A stretch of 64,000 nt of DNA from Erythrobasidium yunnanense (lineage: Eukaryota > Basidiomycota > Cystobasidiomycetes > Erythrobasidiales > Erythrobasidiaceae), in assembly GCA_001600175.1 (NCBI GenBank), contig BCJC01000001.1:4139652-4203651 (forward strand). The letters are read 5' to 3'. The position numbers and the translations under genes were made by a program. The notes beneath the pieces were generated by a model. The model was not told the DNA's origin. It did not search any database and worked only from the letters and a program-made list of their open reading frames with translations. Below, piece after piece: positions 33,498 through 49,833 of this stretch; position 1 is the first letter of the stretch; the number at the start of each line of letters is the position of its first letter.

Positions 33498-34378
33498 TTA
33501 AGCCTGTCCAGGTCTGGCTTCAGCAACCGTCTTGCCGGTCGTGACCTGGTATCCTGAGTCAGCGTGTGCACTAGCAGACAGAATGAAGATACTTACAGAC
33601 TGGCTGACGTCGATGGAGCCTGCTACACCGGTTGTCTTGCCTTGGATCTTGGAGTGGTAGTCCCGGATAGCTGCCTTGATGGCGTCCTCTGCCAACATCG
33701 AGCAGTGGAGTCTAAGTCCGCCAAGGTCAGCATAACGATTTCCCCCATCAGATGATGTTACACTCACTTAACGGGTGGTAGACTGAGCTCCTTCGCAATC
33801 TCTGTATTCCTAATCTTTCCCGCTTCTTCCAACGAGAGTCCCTTCACTCGTTCGGTCATGTAGCTGCTTGACGCAATAGCAGAACCACATCCGAACGTCT
33901 TGAAGCGTACGTCTGAAATGATGCCTTTGTCGTCTACTTTGATCTGAAGCTTCATAACATCTCCACAGGCGGGTGCGCCAACGAGCCCGGTCCCGACTTC
34001 GCCCATCTCTGCTTTGGGGAAAGACCCAACCTGCAGAGTCGTGCACGTTAGTAGATAGACGATGGCCATGTGTAGGCGATGCCCACATTTCTAGGCTTCT
34101 CGAAGTGGTCTGTCGAGATTGGAGTTTCCCGATGATTTCGCATGAAGAAAGGTCGTATATTCGAGCAGGACAAGCAGTAGGAAAGGCAGCATGAAGGAAC
34201 ACCATCAGCCGACATTGTCGCAAAGTGCCCTGTCGGTTCCCCGCGCACCAATGACATTCTGATGGTAGGCTCTGCTCTGAATCGCAGCAAAGGCTCGGGG
34301 AGCAGCAGTCGCCTGTCTGAAGCTGGCTGCGCTGGTTGACGCTTTGACGAAAGTATTGAATCCTGTACGTAGCGACAT
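33498..34378 (-). CDS. ISU1: iron-sulfur cluster scaffold protein ISU1/IscU
   Basis: Five exons from the ATG at 34378: 34378-34249, 34109-34087 (23 nt), 34030 onward, and two more to the stop at 33498. The presequence MSLRTGFNTFVKASTS is followed by AYHQNVIDHFEKPRNVGSFP, restored only when the 23-nt exon is spliced. The three cluster cysteines are present: APACGDVMKL, FKTFGCGSAIASSS and LHCSMLAEDAI. LPPVK, the Hsp70 (Ssq1) docking motif, is intact across the intron. It is the mitochondrial scaffold on which Nfs1-Isd11 builds 2Fe-2S clusters. It converges with COX15, with 235 bases between. Confidence 0.93.
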
Positions 34379-34685: not shown

Positions 34686-35948
34686 CTACTCTCGCCCCGC
34701 CAGCCGGTCTTCCTCCTCCTCCTCATGCAGCGCAGCGTTCGCCAAATCCCTATACTGGCATAAAGCCTTCATCGCGCTCCCCGAGCTTATGCTTTCCCTC
34801 GCCATGACGACCCCTTCTTTCTCATCCTTCGCCTGTCCCGCAACTACGAGCAGAGCCGCTGCGTTCAGCACCACGAAGTTCTCGATTTGCGAGGTTTCCG
34901 GATCAAGCTTGTTTGAGAATAGGTCAAGAATGAGTTGTGCGTTCTCGTGTGGTTTCCCGCCGGCCACGCTCGATAGAGGATGTGATTTCAAACCGAATGT
35001 CTCCGGCGAGACAATGCGTTCTGTGATTTGGCCGTCTTGCAGCACCCAGACCTGCATCGTAATCCTTAGCTATGGATGAGCGTTCGGAGAGGGATTATAC
35101 TCACGTGTGACGTGCCTTCCGGGCTGATTTCATCCAGACCCTCATCTCCGTTGACCACCCAAGCTCTTTTCACTTTCAGCGTCCGCAATGCTTCTGCAAA
35201 GGGTAATCCTAGATAGCGCGAATGCACTCCTACGATCATATAGTCTGGCCTTGCAGGGTTAAGTAGCGGGCCAAGGATGTTGAAGATGGTGGGATGGCCC
35301 AACTGCCGTCTGATCGGCGCAACGAGGGCAAGAGCGGGATGACATAAAGGTGCGAATAGGAAGAGGAAAGGTTTGGAAAGACGGGAAGCTATACTTGGGA
35401 TGCGAGAAAGGGGAAGAGAGGTGATGGGGATGTCGAGCGCCAGAAGAACATCTGCGCTGCCTGAAGCTGAAGAAGATGCGCGAGCGCCGTGCTATAAATG
35501 AATCGGGAACACATCAGCCTATGTTCTGCGACTTTGACGAGAATAGGGGTCGAGAAGTACGGACTTTACAAATCTTGACGCCTGCTCCAGCAGCTACGAG
35601 TGCCGCTGTTGTCGACACGTTGAAAGTATCTTTACCATCTCCTCCCGTGCCCACCAGATCCGCCCAGCCCGTCTGTTCCAGCTCGACTCGAACAGCTCTT
35701 TCGCGCATGCTCTGCGCTGCAATAGACATCATTTCAGGTTTTCCCTCGAGGCCAGATGCGCGTAGAAGTGCTAAGAAAGCGCCAGTCTGATACTCTGTGC
35801 ATGAATCTGGATTGAAAAGGTGGTCGAAAGCCAGGCTGAGCTCAGAGGGCGTAAAGCTGCCAGGGTGATTCGCAAGCTTCCGTAACAATGGCTCCATCGT
35901 CTCGCTCGTCAGCTCATTGCTGAAACTTGACCGCCTGGACCGGGGCAT
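34686..35948 (-). CDS. TRP4: anthranilate phosphoribosyltransferase
   Basis: Three exons from the ATG at 35948 encode the second-step enzyme of tryptophan synthesis (anthranilate + PRPP). The N-terminal helices read LLRKLANHPGSFTPSELSLA and TGAFLALLRASGLEGKPEMM. The PRPP-binding loop is intact: DLVGTGGDGKDTFNVSTTAA. The KHGNR motif of bacterial enzymes reads KHGARASSSASGSAD, with Ala for Asn. RQLGHPTIFNILGPLLNPAR, VVNGDEGLDEISPEG and NAAALLVVAG follow. The C-terminus is acidic (HEEEEEDRLAGRE). It is divergent from a degenerate paralogue across 79 bases. The presence of the glycine loop makes this the functional copy by inference. Confidence 0.92.
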
Positions 35949-36027
35949 GTTTGGACGTTTATCGCGAAAGAGAGAGAAAAGCAAATGATATGACTTGACT
36001 TGCTTCTCTAACAATCCCTTGAAGATT
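35949..36027. promoter_or_regulatory. very short divergent promoter between TRP4 and its paralogue
   Basis: The gap between the two start codons is 79 bases. A Gcn4-type site was not clearly recognised. An in-frame ATG at 35995 for the plus-strand gene would shorten it further. Confidence 0.45.
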
Positions 36028-37359
36028 ATGGTCACTGGTGCTGCTAACGGGTCTACATTTGATGTCAATTCCTTCAAGCCTATATTATCCAAACTCTTGA
36101 AGCAGCCTGATGCCTTCAGTCCTGATGACCTAAAACTCGCCCTCCTCCATATCGCTTCTGGCAAGATTTCCCATGCTCAAACGGGCTCCTTCCTAGCTAC
36201 GCTCAAAGTCACAGACGTATGGCGCAAACCTGAACTCGTCCAAGTCCTGGTGCAAGAATTGAATGCTCTGGCTGGATCAGTTAGCGTGGGCAGCCAAGGT
36301 AACATCTGCGACTGGACCTTCACAGGAGAAAGCGGCCTGTCGGTACGTTATACACACGAATTATCGCGCCGAAAGTCTAGCTAAAGCGCGTTGACTAGGT
36401 CATCAATGTAGCCCTTCCAGCGGCCATAGTTGCTGCAGGAGCTGGCTGTAGAGTCGTAAAGGTCAGTCTATCCCATACTTCTACGCAAGTATAGCACTCT
36501 GACGCTCAAGCTTCAGCACGGCAACTCCTCCTCACCATGGCCTTCCACGCCCTCTTCAGGCGACATTCTCACAGCTCTTTCTGTTCCTACGACCACTCTT
36601 CCTCCCTTCTCACTCACCAAAGTAGCTTCTTCGCGGCACGTCCCCTTTCTCCACATCTTTACACCCCGCTACTCCCCTCAATTAGCAAGTATGACTCCCT
36701 TACGGCGGGAATTAGGCTTCGAGACCATCTTCCACTCGCTTGCATCCCTTATATCGCCTGCGAAACGTGACTATCTCGTCATTGGTGTGCATCAGGAATG
36801 GCTGGGACAGGTGTTTGCGGAGGGTTGCAAAACCCTTGGAGCGAAAAGAGCTTGGATAGTTCATGGCAAGAAGCACGGATTAGATGCTATCTCGCCGGAA
36901 GGAGAGACTATGGTGTGGGAATTGAAAGAGGATGGATCGATACAGCAAAACACCCTCACACCAGCAGATTTTGGTATCGAGGAATCGCCATTAGCAAAAG
37001 TTCAGCTGCCGTCCAATGGCTCAGAAGCACAGAACGCAGCTGCATCGAGTTACTTCAAGCACGCACGCATAATAGCATCCTCACTATCTCCACGAAGGAC
37101 ATCCAACAACGGACAGATAGTCACACCTTACGAGCCGGACGAGTATGGAACGACCCAATCTGTCGACACAAAGGCTATCGAGGATTTTGTGTGCATGAAT
37201 GCTGCTGCTCTGCTGGTGGTAGCTGGCAAGGCGGGTAATACGAAAGATGCGATGAAGCTCGCTAGAAAGAGCTTGAAGGATGGGAAGGCATACCATGCGC
37301 TGGAGGCATTGAGGGACGCGTCGGCGCTTGCTGTAGATGTAGACTCTATGGATGGATAG
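36028..37359 (+). CDS. anthranilate phosphoribosyltransferase-like protein lacking the PRPP-binding loop
   Basis: Three exons, 36028-36342, 36399-36461 and 36517-37359, encode 406 residues. It aligns along its whole length with TRP4: ILSKLLKQPDAFSPDDLKLA, QTGSFLATLKVTDVWRKPEL, INVALPAAIVAAGAGCRVVK, KHGNSSS, RRELGFETIFHSLASLISPA, VHGKKHGLDAISPEGETMVW and NAAALLVVAGKAG. Where active enzymes have GTGGDG, this one reads NICDWTFTGESGLS, so it should not bind PRPP normally. About 50 residues are inserted before the C-terminal helices (LPSNGSEAQNAAAS and following). Frame and splice sites are intact, so it looks like a kept pseudoenzyme or an enzyme with changed substrate rather than a decaying gene. 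Confidence 0.88.
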
Positions 37360-37541
37360 ATGTTGTACTCTCAATTAATGATGAACCATCTGGTACATTC
37401 AGACCGCTTCTTGCTCCAGACCACTTCAAGCGAACACGAACGAGTTGCACCCTGTATAACTCACCCAAATAGAACAGACTATCGGCGCCCATGCAACCTT
37501 AACACAAATCGCTGCGAATCTGCTAGAGAGACTCTAGCAAG

Positions 37542-40500
37542 ATGGTCAATTCGCGCCCTGCTTCGCCAATTCCTCCTCACGCTGAGAATTTAGCTAGTCA
37601 CCATCCTGAAGCTACTTCCACTGGTTCTGCTGCTCCCACATCCGCATTCTTGGCGCGAAGAGCTAGCAGTCCTGTCCACGGCCTCGCTAGATCAAGCAGT
37701 TTAGGAGCTCAGTCGCAGCGCGCACAAGGCGGTCCCTCTAGGCGTCAACGATCTATTCATATCAACATCAAACCTGATCCGACTCCCCCTAGCTCTGCTT
37801 TCGGCGTCAGTCTGGCAACATGGTTGCCTGGTTCTTCCACAAGCAACGAGTCTGGCAGTCCTCTAGCTGGTCCATATGCTGGTCATTCGTCACCTATCGC
37901 GATGAATGTATCTTCCTCTGCTTCGGCGATGGATCCCAAGCGCAGCTCGCATTCTAGAACCCATCCTAGTGCGAGCTCACACGCTTATTCAGAAGGAGAC
38001 GTGCATACTGCTGCGTTAGCGAGCCTGAGACATAAAGGAGATCGTAGACAGTCAAATGCGAACAGGTGGTCAACGCGATGGGCTGGCCTAGTACGCACTG
38101 CTTCGCATCGGATAGAACGAGACGGACTACGGAAAGCGATGTGGAGTCGAGGCAGACAGCTAGGAGGACCGTCATCATCCAGCAGTACCGGAAGCCCGGG
38201 CATGCTAAATGATGTATGGGACAGAATCAGGCGGATCCCCGAGATCCTGTGGGTGGAGAGCGAGGATTCGGTCACTTCATCGAGTCTTTGGCAGCAAGCG
38301 GGTCAAGCACAAGAAGGCGACTTGTCTTCTGATGATACCGAGAACCTGCTGGAAGACGAAGATGTTTCGATGTCGCCGCGGAAACGGCTTGAAGGCGCAC
38401 AACCCAAGAGACAAAGAAGACGACCTGCCGCATTCCTGCATGCCAAGCGCTCGCTGGATCGCTGGCGACGCTTTATGGGAGTCAGCAGACCTGCGTTCTT
38501 CTTGCTCCTATGTATGCTATTTCTCGGCGCTTGGGAGACGCTCCGCAGCAAAGATAGCAAAAGCACCAGTTTATACAAGGGTCCTGCGCTCTTAAAAGTG
38601 TATGCGAACGATCCGTTCCGGACGCTTCGGGATGCAGGCATCAAAATACCACAAGCTTCCGGCGACAACCGCCTGACCACTCAATCAAGCCTCGTCCCGG
38701 CTGCACCAAGTAAAGCACGGACAACGGCCATCGTACTGAGCTGGAAACGCCTCGATAACCTGGTAGTCATCCTGGCTCACCTGTGCAGTCATGCTGGCTC
38801 TGTCTTCGATAGTACGATCGTCTGGAACAACAACCCGGATATTCGCGTGTCTGCCGAGGTGAGTACTGATTAGTCCATATATCATCCGGTTATTGAGAGT
38901 GCTTCAGATGCTATCTCAAGCCAAATGTCCTAAAGGGCATCTGCGCATCTACAACTCACCTGGCAACCAGCTTTTCTTTGCTCGATTCCTGGCATGCTCG
39001 CTGGCAGACACTCCCTACGTGAGCTTATGGAAAATCTACCCTGCTATGCCGTGACTGATGATTCGGACTTTAGTGCTATTTCCAAGACGATGACTGGCTG
39101 GTTCCCTCTTTACCAGCTGTACACGCTCATTTTACGCGCAATCCTACTGGACCTGCCGTTGTTGCAACAGGCGATGAGTTCCCTATCAAGGAGGGTTGGG
39201 AGTGGTGCTTCTCCAGTACGCTTTCGTAATTCAAAGATTATCTAGACCATGCTGACAGATCTGAAGACTCTGAATATAGTCTTAACACGTGTTTCGCGTG
39301 GCTTGGGACTGGTGCTTTCGTTTCACAAGCGAAAGTACTACAAACGCTCGAAGCGATCTCAACCATCAGCGAACAATCCCCAAACGGCCGGAGTTCTCTA
39401 GGTCCACTGCGAAGTGACGAAGTTTCGATGTTCGACAACTACTTCACGACACTACAAAATGAGCCGCCCTATGTCATCACGAGTCGGATGCTACCGCTCC
39501 CTCAGCCTGTTGCTGTCGCTTTTACCGCAGGCGGTGAAGGCGATCGCAGGAATGAGATCTATATTGTAAGTGCCCGCCGTGGAAATGTCCAGCTCAATAG
39601 CTAAGTTATGGTTCAGCAACATGGCATCGATCGTCTCGCTTCTTCGTTGGGACTTGTGTTACATCCCCTCAAACAGGAACCCATCATGTACTCTCGCCGC
39701 GTAGACACGACGGCCTACCAGCAGACAATCGATCCGCAGACGCTTCAACCGGCAGCGAAACATACGTATCGGCACCATACTCGCTCAGCGGCTCATCTCA
39801 ACGACTTTCTCTTCATGACCAATGTTGCAAATCTGCCGCCTCCCGATTCAGTAACGTATCAGCCTCATGCGCTGCTGAACATCTCGCGGTGGGAGCAGAG
39901 CAAAGTCGCCTTGTGGCAGGAAGGGAAAAACTGGGCGGATAAGTGGCCATACTATGCTGCGGTCGACGGTGATGAGCACACGGCATGGCGAAGTCCTGAC
40001 GGTACGGCCACTCCCAGCAGAGCAAAGACGAAGGCTGATCTCTTCCGCATATAGCGATACGCGAAGGTGACTATATCGGTCTTGACATGCTACAACAGCT
40101 CGATGCGGACGTTCGTCGAGATATCACGATACACCTTCTTCTGGAATATGCCGAAGACGTTGCGGAGCATATAAACCTCGAGACATCCTCTGACGGCTCC
40201 ACTTGGGTAGGTCAGCTTGCACGACGAGCCTCCGGTAAATGGCTAAATGAGTCTCTCCCTAGTCTGCCATACCTAAGCAGTCGAAAATTTCCTGTCGCAT
40301 GGCAGGTCACCTTTCATCGCAGCCGAAACAGCCTTTCCCTTCGAGTTTCCTGACTTCAGATACTGCACGCAAGGCAATCGAAGCACATTCGGAACGAGCT
40401 AGCAGCTCCTGGATGACGAGCAAACGGCGCTTAAGAGCCTGCGAAGTGACCGTTAGTGCGTTAAGCGGCGCAGCTCGAAGGAAAGGCTGGCGTTTCATTC

Positions 40501-48025: not shown

Positions 48026-49833
48026 ATGTCGAACAAGCGCGTCAAGCCTGAACTGCCACTGAAGAAGAGGCTGAAGGAGACCTTTACCAAAACATGGCAT
48101 CTTGGCTTTACGTCTTTTGGCGGGCCAAGTGTGCACTTTCAGATTGTAGGTACAGCATATCAACTTGGAGTTCAGGCTTGTTGATCGAGGGCTGATCAGT
48201 AGATACACTAGTTCTATAAGTACTATCTGCAGAAATGGAAATGGACAGACGAGCAGTCAGTACGTATCGAAGATACTATGCGCGTCTTCCGGCGGACCAG
48301 AGCCCTAACTCAGTACCGTCCTGACTGATTTGTCTGCAGTACCAGGAGATCTTCGCATTATGCCAGACTACACCTGGACCGGCGAGCACCAAGATGAACT
48401 ACTGCATAAATCTCGTCCGTAACGGGGTTCTTGCTGGATTGCTGTCACTGGCTCTCTGGTGGTACGTACAACAATACACGCTGTGTGACTACAGCACCGA
48501 TCCTGACGTTCTCTTATATGCTTCGACAGCCTGCCCGGACTTTTGGGCATGTACGGTTTGGCCCTAGGCATCGCTCAAGCAGGCGATACACTTCCTCTTC
48601 CCGTCTATGCTCTCATCACTGGTCTAAATGCGGCAACAGTGGGCATAATGGCTCTTGCGGCCGTCCAGCTCAGCGACAAAGCTATAACCGATCGATGGAC
48701 GCGCATCATGGTCTTTCTGGGAGGCGTAGCTGGTATACTATACTCTGCATTATGGTACTTTCCTACTATCTTCGGGGTTGCAGGCCTGGCTACTGCCATC
48801 TGGGATTGGGATGTTACACAGAATCTCTTTCGAAAAGCCAAGCGAGCATGGTTACAACGTAAGAGCCCACCTGAGCAGTCAGCAGACCGAGCGCAGGCCG
48901 GGCAAGTATCCGAAACTGCAGACGAATCTGGGACAGATGTGGAATTGCAAGACCTGACGAAGACCCAGTCAAACGGAGATATAGGCCGAGCGATTTCGAG
49001 ACAGTCCACCCAGGTCGTCTCGGACAGTATTGCCACTCCCATCTCTCTCCCTCCTCCCACTTCGACACCGGAGCCCAAGCCGGTACAAGACTCAGCTATC
49101 AAAGTCCGCTTCTCGTGGAAGATTGGCGTCGCGTTGCTGGTCTCTTGGCTGGTCATTCTGATAGTTGCGGTGGTACTACGCAACACCCTTCGGAACCCTC
49201 CTCGCGCTTTTGCTTTGTTCGCAAATCTTTACCTTGCTGGGTCGATAATCTTAGGAGGTTAGCATAGCCGACCAAAGAACTCAGCGAGCTTCGCTGAAGT
49301 TTGAAAACACAGGCGGACCCGTCGTTATTCCTCTGCTACGTGTGTATATCAGCACCGAATGGGTTGGCGAGCGAGATTTCCTCCTTGGTCTGGCCATCAT
49401 TCAAGCTTTCCCGGGCCCCAACTTCAATTTCGCAGCCTATCTAGGAGCACTCAGTCTGCGTGGTACGGGCACGAACATGATCTTCGGTGCCCTCATCGGG
49501 TTCATCGGTATTTTTACACCTGGCATAGCGGTTATCACAGGCTTGATGCCTTTGTGGAATGCCATCCGCAACAACAGATGGATCAAAAGTACTCTTCGTG
49601 GAATTAATGCTGCTGCCGTTGGATTGGTCTACAGCAGCGTGTACCGCTTGTTCCAGGTTGGTCTGGTCGATTCTAGCTCAAAAACTGGAAGACCGCTAGG
49701 CTCAGATCCTTGGTGGGTAGCGATAACGGCAGGAAGCTTTGTAGCTGGCAGATTCTTTGGCTTTGATGCCTTCTTGGCGATAGTCAGCGGAGGTGTGCTG
49801 GGCTTACTATGGTACGCAGTGACCCAGGTGTAG
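48026..49833 (+). CDS. chromate transporter (CHR family)
   Basis: Five exons, 48026-48145, 48212-48259, 48340-48461, 48530-49257 and 49313-49833, encode 512 residues. Two homologous membrane halves are visible, as usual for long CHR proteins: the first has LGFTSFGGPSVHFQ and CQTTPGPASTKMNYCINLVR; the second has LYLAGSIILGGGPVVIPLL and IIQAFPGPNFNFAAYLGALS. The FGGP/GGGP and PGP motifs line the anion path. A hydrophilic linker of about 100 residues (SADRAQAGQVSETADESGTD) joins the halves. CHR proteins export chromate or take up sulfate-like anions; direction and substrate in fungi are not settled. Confidence 0.9.

Follow-up and report, generated by a model that had tools for sequence, protein, structure and literature searches.

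A diverged paralogue of TRP4 without the PRPP and magnesium sites, probably a retained pseudoenzyme, beside TRP4 in Erythrobasidium yunnanense

The window analyzed here is a 64,000-nucleotide stretch of the Erythrobasidium yunnanense genome (contig BCJC01000001.1). At positions 34686-37359, TRP4 (minus strand) and a second gene of the same family (PARA, plus strand) are divergently arranged, with start codons 79 bases apart. TRP4 encodes an anthranilate phosphoribosyltransferase (AnPRT); the protein encoded by PARA lacks the loop that binds PRPP. The question raised by this locus is what such a gene does next to TRP4: whether its product is still an enzyme, is a decaying duplicate, or has been kept for some other role.

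The divergent pair and its origin

The gene models are collected in Table 1. All four predicted introns, two per gene, are of the GT..AG type and in phase 0. The codon boundary K/HG is split in both genes, TRP4 intron 1 being the equivalent of PARA intron 2; the private intron of PARA falls, in the model, within the sequence found in place of the PRPP loop. In BLASTP, the two proteins were 37% identical (55% positives, E 2e-78). A sequence-only reading of this DNA had described a divergent TRP4 pair, 79 bases apart and aligning over its length, in which one partner carries GTGGDG and the other lacks it but has KHGN, an open frame and good splice sites; the gene models and the alignment bore out both statements. 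Because the phase-0 intron at K/HG is shared, TRP4 and PARA must have arisen by duplication.

Table 1. Coordinates of the features of the TRP4/PARA locus, numbered from the first base of the window
Feature	Position	Strand	Basis
TRP4, anthranilate phosphoribosyltransferase, 378 aa	34686..35948	-	ATG at 35948; homology, TIGR01245
TRP4 exons 1-3	35948-35565, 35491-35105, 35051-34686 (incl. stop)	-	predicted model
TRP4 intron 1, GTCCGT..TAG, at K/HG	35492..35564	-	predicted
TRP4 intron 2, GTGAGT..CAG, no PARA equivalent	35052..35104	-	predicted
Gap between both start codons, 79 bases	35949..36027	.	sequence
PARA, diverged Trp4 paralogue without PRPP/Mg site, 406 aa	36028..37359	+	ATG at 36028
PARA exons 1-3	36028-36342, 36399-36461, 36517-37359 (incl. 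stop)	+	predicted model
PARA intron 1, GTACGT..TAG, no TRP4 equivalent	36343..36398	+	predicted
PARA intron 2, GTCAGT..CAG, at K/HG	36462..36516	+	predicted
PARA lengthened segment, 61 residues vs 29 in TRP4	36994..37176	+	alignment

Both 5' leaders must lie at least partly in the gap between the start codons, which probably also constitutes a promoter shared by the two genes. Neither a Gcn4-type site (TGACTC/GAGTCA) nor TATAAA or CCAAT/ATTGG occurs in these 79 bases; there is one near match, TGACTT, at 35991.

The match of PARA to PF00591 (149 bits, E 2.6e-43) is not due to chance. When the genome (20.9 Mb, 10 contigs) was searched with PF00591 and with PARA, the matches were exons of TRP4 and PARA, and no third PF00591 gene was found among the matches listed; such genome-wide counts are minimum values. 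The tryptophan pathway is also represented at a later step, by a PRAI domain on a second contig (C2), within an open frame of 859 aa. Trehalose-phosphate synthase pieces of this genome scored highest against 8fhw (736.6 bits, with the next match at 717.2), the Cryptococcus enzyme, a result that in itself is a weak pointer to Basidiomycota.

TRP4 and PARA were aligned with S. cerevisiae Trp4 (chain residues 54-378; PDB entries 7dsj, 7dsm, 7dsp and 7dsr) and with 32 bacterial TrpD proteins. The bacterial rows comprised the 30 best-scoring loci of 143 positive genomes (150 searched, from one phylum) plus two other loci, and are not a broad sample. In a maximum-likelihood tree of these 35 sequences, TRP4 and PARA were placed together, apart from yeast Trp4, with an ultrafast bootstrap value of 99; the three fungal proteins were grouped at the same value. 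The branch lengths were 1.18 for PARA, 0.55 for TRP4 (a 2.2-fold difference) and 1.63 for yeast Trp4. The duplication thus probably postdates the divergence from the yeast line; yeast Trp4 being the sole further fungal sequence in the tree, and a longer branch at that, no finer dating than this is supported.

Residues of the active site

Ligand residues were mapped from PMC9835598 and are given in M. tuberculosis numbering. TRP4 reads GTGGDG...NVST...KHGA where PARA reads FTGESG...NVAL...KHGN. The PRPP loop, GTGGD in TRP4, yeast Trp4 and all 32 bacterial TrpDs, is FTGES in PARA. The changes in PARA are G107F, G110E, D111S, S119A, T120L, R139S, S142P and E252A, and G109, N117, K135, H136, G137, N138, S143, R193 and D251 are retained, along with the family-consensus Ser at position 147; positions 142, 143 and 147 are uncertain because of a nearby two-residue insertion with prolines, in the beta2-alpha6 loop. 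Ser119 and Glu252 are described as the residues through which the protein coordinates the catalytic magnesium (PMC9835598). Both are Ala in PARA, and they are Ser and Glu in the 32 bacterial rows, TRP4 and yeast.

At six PRPP-loop or Mg/pyrophosphate positions, PARA departs from a residue that the 32 bacterial sequences, TRP4 and yeast Trp4 all share. PARA keeps 5 of the 11 PRPP/Mg positions, TRP4 all 11, and yeast Trp4 nine. TRP4, which keeps these positions, is 38% identical to yeast Trp4 over 301 columns; for PARA, which has neither the GTGGD loop nor either Mg ligand, the value is 28% over 304 columns. On the trpD model TIGR01245 (cut-off 199.05 bits), TRP4 scored 320.7 bits and PARA 185.8, and the PF02885 score of PARA (24.6 bits) was slightly below the cut-off of 26. 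Judged from its residues, TRP4 looks like a complete enzyme. Since the PRPP loop and both Mg ligands are lost, PARA should not make phosphoribosyl-anthranilate.

That PARA is still active as an AnPRT, the twins being redundant or used under different conditions, is very improbable. The yeast mutant trp4-S121A is reported to grow without tryptophan, with no dominant effect, despite there being no clear PRPP density in its crystal (PMC12750150); S121 is the equivalent of S119, and one lost Mg ligand is therefore no proof of inactivity. PARA, as its sequence reads, goes beyond S121A in that the second Mg ligand and the phosphate loop are also lost; the six changes at invariant positions and the score below the trpD cut-off likewise argue against activity.

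It is distinctly unlikely that PARA catalyzes an altered reaction, using another sugar phosphate or another base. Such an enzyme would rely on the retained K135, H136, N138, R193 and D251, among them the anthranilate-holding side chains (N138 and R193) and the first two residues of KHGN; the pyrophosphate-site residue N117 has also been retained. This reading has to contend with the Ala at both Mg-ligand positions, with the Phe and Glu at two of the GTGGD glycines, and with the insertion and its prolines in the beta2-alpha6 loop; on inspection of the sequence, no replacement motif stood out.

The KHGN motif had been given another meaning in the sequence-only reading: TRP4 has KHGA where bacterial enzymes have KHGN, PARA retains the Asn, and the two proteins could complement each other across a shared dimer. 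The residues are as described, but they mark no defect in TRP4. Yeast Trp4 reads KHGG, and is thus also without the Asn, and Gly is found in 3 of the 32 bacterial rows; KHGA is therefore within the variation of the family, and complementation would be unnecessary. It is also unlikely, because in the account of the family given in PMC9835598 each active site is located at the hinge that joins both domains of a single subunit, and the sites do not interact directly across the dimer. The solved AnPRTs are described there as homodimers joined via their helical domains, in which dimer formation contributes to stability and plays no direct role in catalysis; for the Sulfolobus enzyme, it is not directly needed for catalysis (PMC9835598). 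With the TRP4 site being complete as well, complementation was rejected.

Retention and fold of PARA

Targeted loss of ligand residues found no significant support in two tests and was not adopted. Of 45 universal positions (common to TRP4, yeast Trp4 and the bacterial rows), 14 are ligand positions, and 8 of these are unchanged in PARA, compared to 23 of the remaining 31 (Fisher p 0.21); in a wider set, the figures are 10 of 17 and 36 of 60, respectively (p 0.57). Resemblance to the bacterial TrpDs, expressed as a PARA/TRP4 ratio, was lowest at TRP4 residues 151-188 (0.58) and in beta1-beta2 (0.61); it was 0.77 in beta2-alpha6, 0.80 in the N-domain and 0.89-0.91 in the C-terminal half, figures that are descriptive and carry no significance test.

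A loss spread alike over catalytic and other conserved sites is in keeping with PARA being a duplicate that currently has no function, either inactivated not long ago or slowly decaying, as is its fast branch (1.18 vs 0.55). So, too, are the results of contig scans: no relatives of PARA (or of TRP4) were found in viral contigs, and the scan of prokaryote genome contigs with PARA returned two bacterial TrpDs and no fungal relative. A dying duplicate is nevertheless decidedly improbable, given the state of the gene. The frame of PARA is intact, with no stops in 406 codons, and its introns are regular. When the TRP4 coding sequence was allowed to drift neutrally to 40% protein identity, by substitutions only and with no indels, every one of 200 runs acquired stops (mean 9.9, minimum 4). 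Codon log-odds, with five of the window's open frames as background, were 0.117 per codon for PARA and 0.094 for TRP4 in frame, and were negative in the other five frames of PARA. Positions that are hydrophobic in the family are kept at 87 of 99 in PARA and at 91 of 99 in TRP4. Selection on PARA could have ended very recently. On these grounds, PARA is probably a retained pseudoenzyme, and the sequence-only reading of a long-retained one holds up as far as a retained Trp4 paralogue with an intact frame, lost sites and the look of a pseudoenzyme.

A unique insert of 50 residues had also been claimed for PARA. There is indeed a longer segment, of a different size: between the anchors PL and IE[DN]F, PARA has 61 residues, TRP4 29, yeast Trp4 31 and the bacterial TrpDs 25-29 (32 of 32), a net gain of 32 over TRP4. 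At least 13 frame-keeping GT..AG pairs are present in this segment (e.g. 37000-37116, 117 bases, with the donor GTTCAG), and an unspliced intron was considered. In its true frame, the insert has codon log-odds of 0.176 per codon, the two alternative frames giving 0.007 and -0.233, and the removal of 37000-37116 would also delete KHARIIASSLS, which looks similar to the NAQLILDLFS helix of TRP4. Because of the coding-like frame and this resemblance, the intron was set aside and the segment was provisionally kept as coding.

Structure models were made for two exons of PARA. The model of exon 3 has a mean pLDDT of 55, with 145 of 280 residues below 50; blocks 91-160 and 221-250 reach 71-92, and the lengthened segment is mostly of low confidence. 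The fold matches of this model (best 50 listed) were all AnPRT entries, the best with an E of 2.1e-11 and a TM of ca. 0.5, at rmsd values of 4.4-8.5 A; the model is poor. Exon 1 was modeled as four helices (mean pLDDT 68), and its fold search yielded no significant match (best E 2.7, for an unrelated protein; the AnPRT entry 1vqu was third, with an E of 4.0). Taken with the PF00591 and PF02885 scores, the models indicate that PARA keeps the AnPRT family fold, i.e. an N-terminal helical domain and an alpha/beta domain.

Possible roles of PARA

Our leading reading, held tentatively and at somewhat less than an even chance, is that PARA is a selected pseudoenzyme derived from TRP4 and most likely acts on or with Trp4. 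TRP4 would have been duplicated locally, in inverted orientation, within the fungal line once this had separated from budding yeast; PARA would have kept the fold, lost the 5'-phosphate loop for PRPP and both protein ligands of Mg, and been kept by selection as a protein. It would be made alongside Trp4 from the shared promoter, would pair with Trp4 via the N-terminal helical domain, stabilizing or tuning it, and might possibly still bind anthranilate. By analogy with the systems discussed below, a regulatory or stabilizing partner of Trp4 is the favored role, and the divergent arrangement suggests joint expression of the two genes. Sequence identity of the twins in the N-domain, the dimer-forming part of AnPRTs, is 34%, a value that lends heterodimers no specific support.

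In a more specific proposal, which we consider unlikely, PARA would be an anthranilate-binding subunit (N138 and R193 kept, PRPP binding lost) that pairs via the helical domain and sets the activity of Trp4 by the level of anthranilate. If this were true, PARA would be a fungal counterpart, in tryptophan synthesis, of the trypanosomatid prozymes.

It is possible, though doubtful, that PARA is instead a pseudoenzyme or neofunctionalized protein outside tryptophan synthesis, e.g. in nucleic-acid or protein binding like YbiB. The bacterial TrpD2/YbiB proteins, according to PMC9835598 and PMC10123104, have an AnPRT-like fold without the PRPP motif, which is also missing from PARA, and are not AnPRTs; nuclear localization has been reported for yeast Trp4 (PMC12750150), and the lengthened segment of PARA may be counted on the same side. 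Nucleic-acid binding of the TrpD2 kind, through basic grooves, would fit less well with the composition of PARA (predicted pI 6.84; 37 K+R and 38 D+E), and the short gap shared with TRP4 hints at co-regulation. On the models NF005635 and NF006564, which we take to be those covering TrpD2, PARA scored 43.7 and 40.9 bits, far under the cut-offs of 287 and 257 and far from its score on the trpD model. TrpD2 proteins are less than 20% identical to AnPRT, whereas PARA averages 29% to the 32 bacterial TrpDs and is thus much nearer to AnPRT proper. An assignment of PARA to TrpD2 was rejected on these grounds; PARA derives from Trp4, and its loss of the motif is an independent, fungal one.

The reading of PARA as a selected partner of Trp4 has precedents. 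TSB-like of eudicots is described as another non-catalytic paralogue from the tryptophan pathway that was kept for a regulatory role (PMC12727527); its ancestor is tryptophan synthase beta and its target the alpha subunit, and its role has been established by experiment, whereas that of PARA is inferred. In trypanosomatids, the AdoMetDC prozyme and the dead paralogue of deoxyhypusine synthase are likewise dead copies beside an active enzyme (PMC5201418, PMC3663545). The E. yunnanense genome has TRP4 with a complete site and PARA with a broken one, a pairing of apparent activity and inactivity as read from sequence. In the trypanosomatid cases, the heteromer and the activation are proven, and the enzymes are described as inactive or weak alone; TRP4, in contrast, looks fully equipped.

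If PARA does act on Trp4, it would add a layer of control to the fungal tryptophan pathway, and the AnPRT fold would then have given rise to a non-AnPRT protein twice independently, here and in bacterial TrpD2. No report of such a fungal protein was found among the listed titles and abstract openings from the open-licence PMC literature; it is quite possible that PARA is already annotated elsewhere as a second TRP4.

Three further features of the window were recorded. Just downstream of TRP4, at 33764-34090 on the minus strand, lies an exon with a NifU_N match (E 6.8e-32), belonging to an iron-sulphur scaffold gene. On the other side, PARA is adjoined by a long open frame at 37527-38873 (plus strand) with no Pfam match up to an E of 0.001. 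The open frame at 48507-49262 (plus strand) has a weak chromate-transporter match, at 27.8 bits against a cut-off of 28.6.
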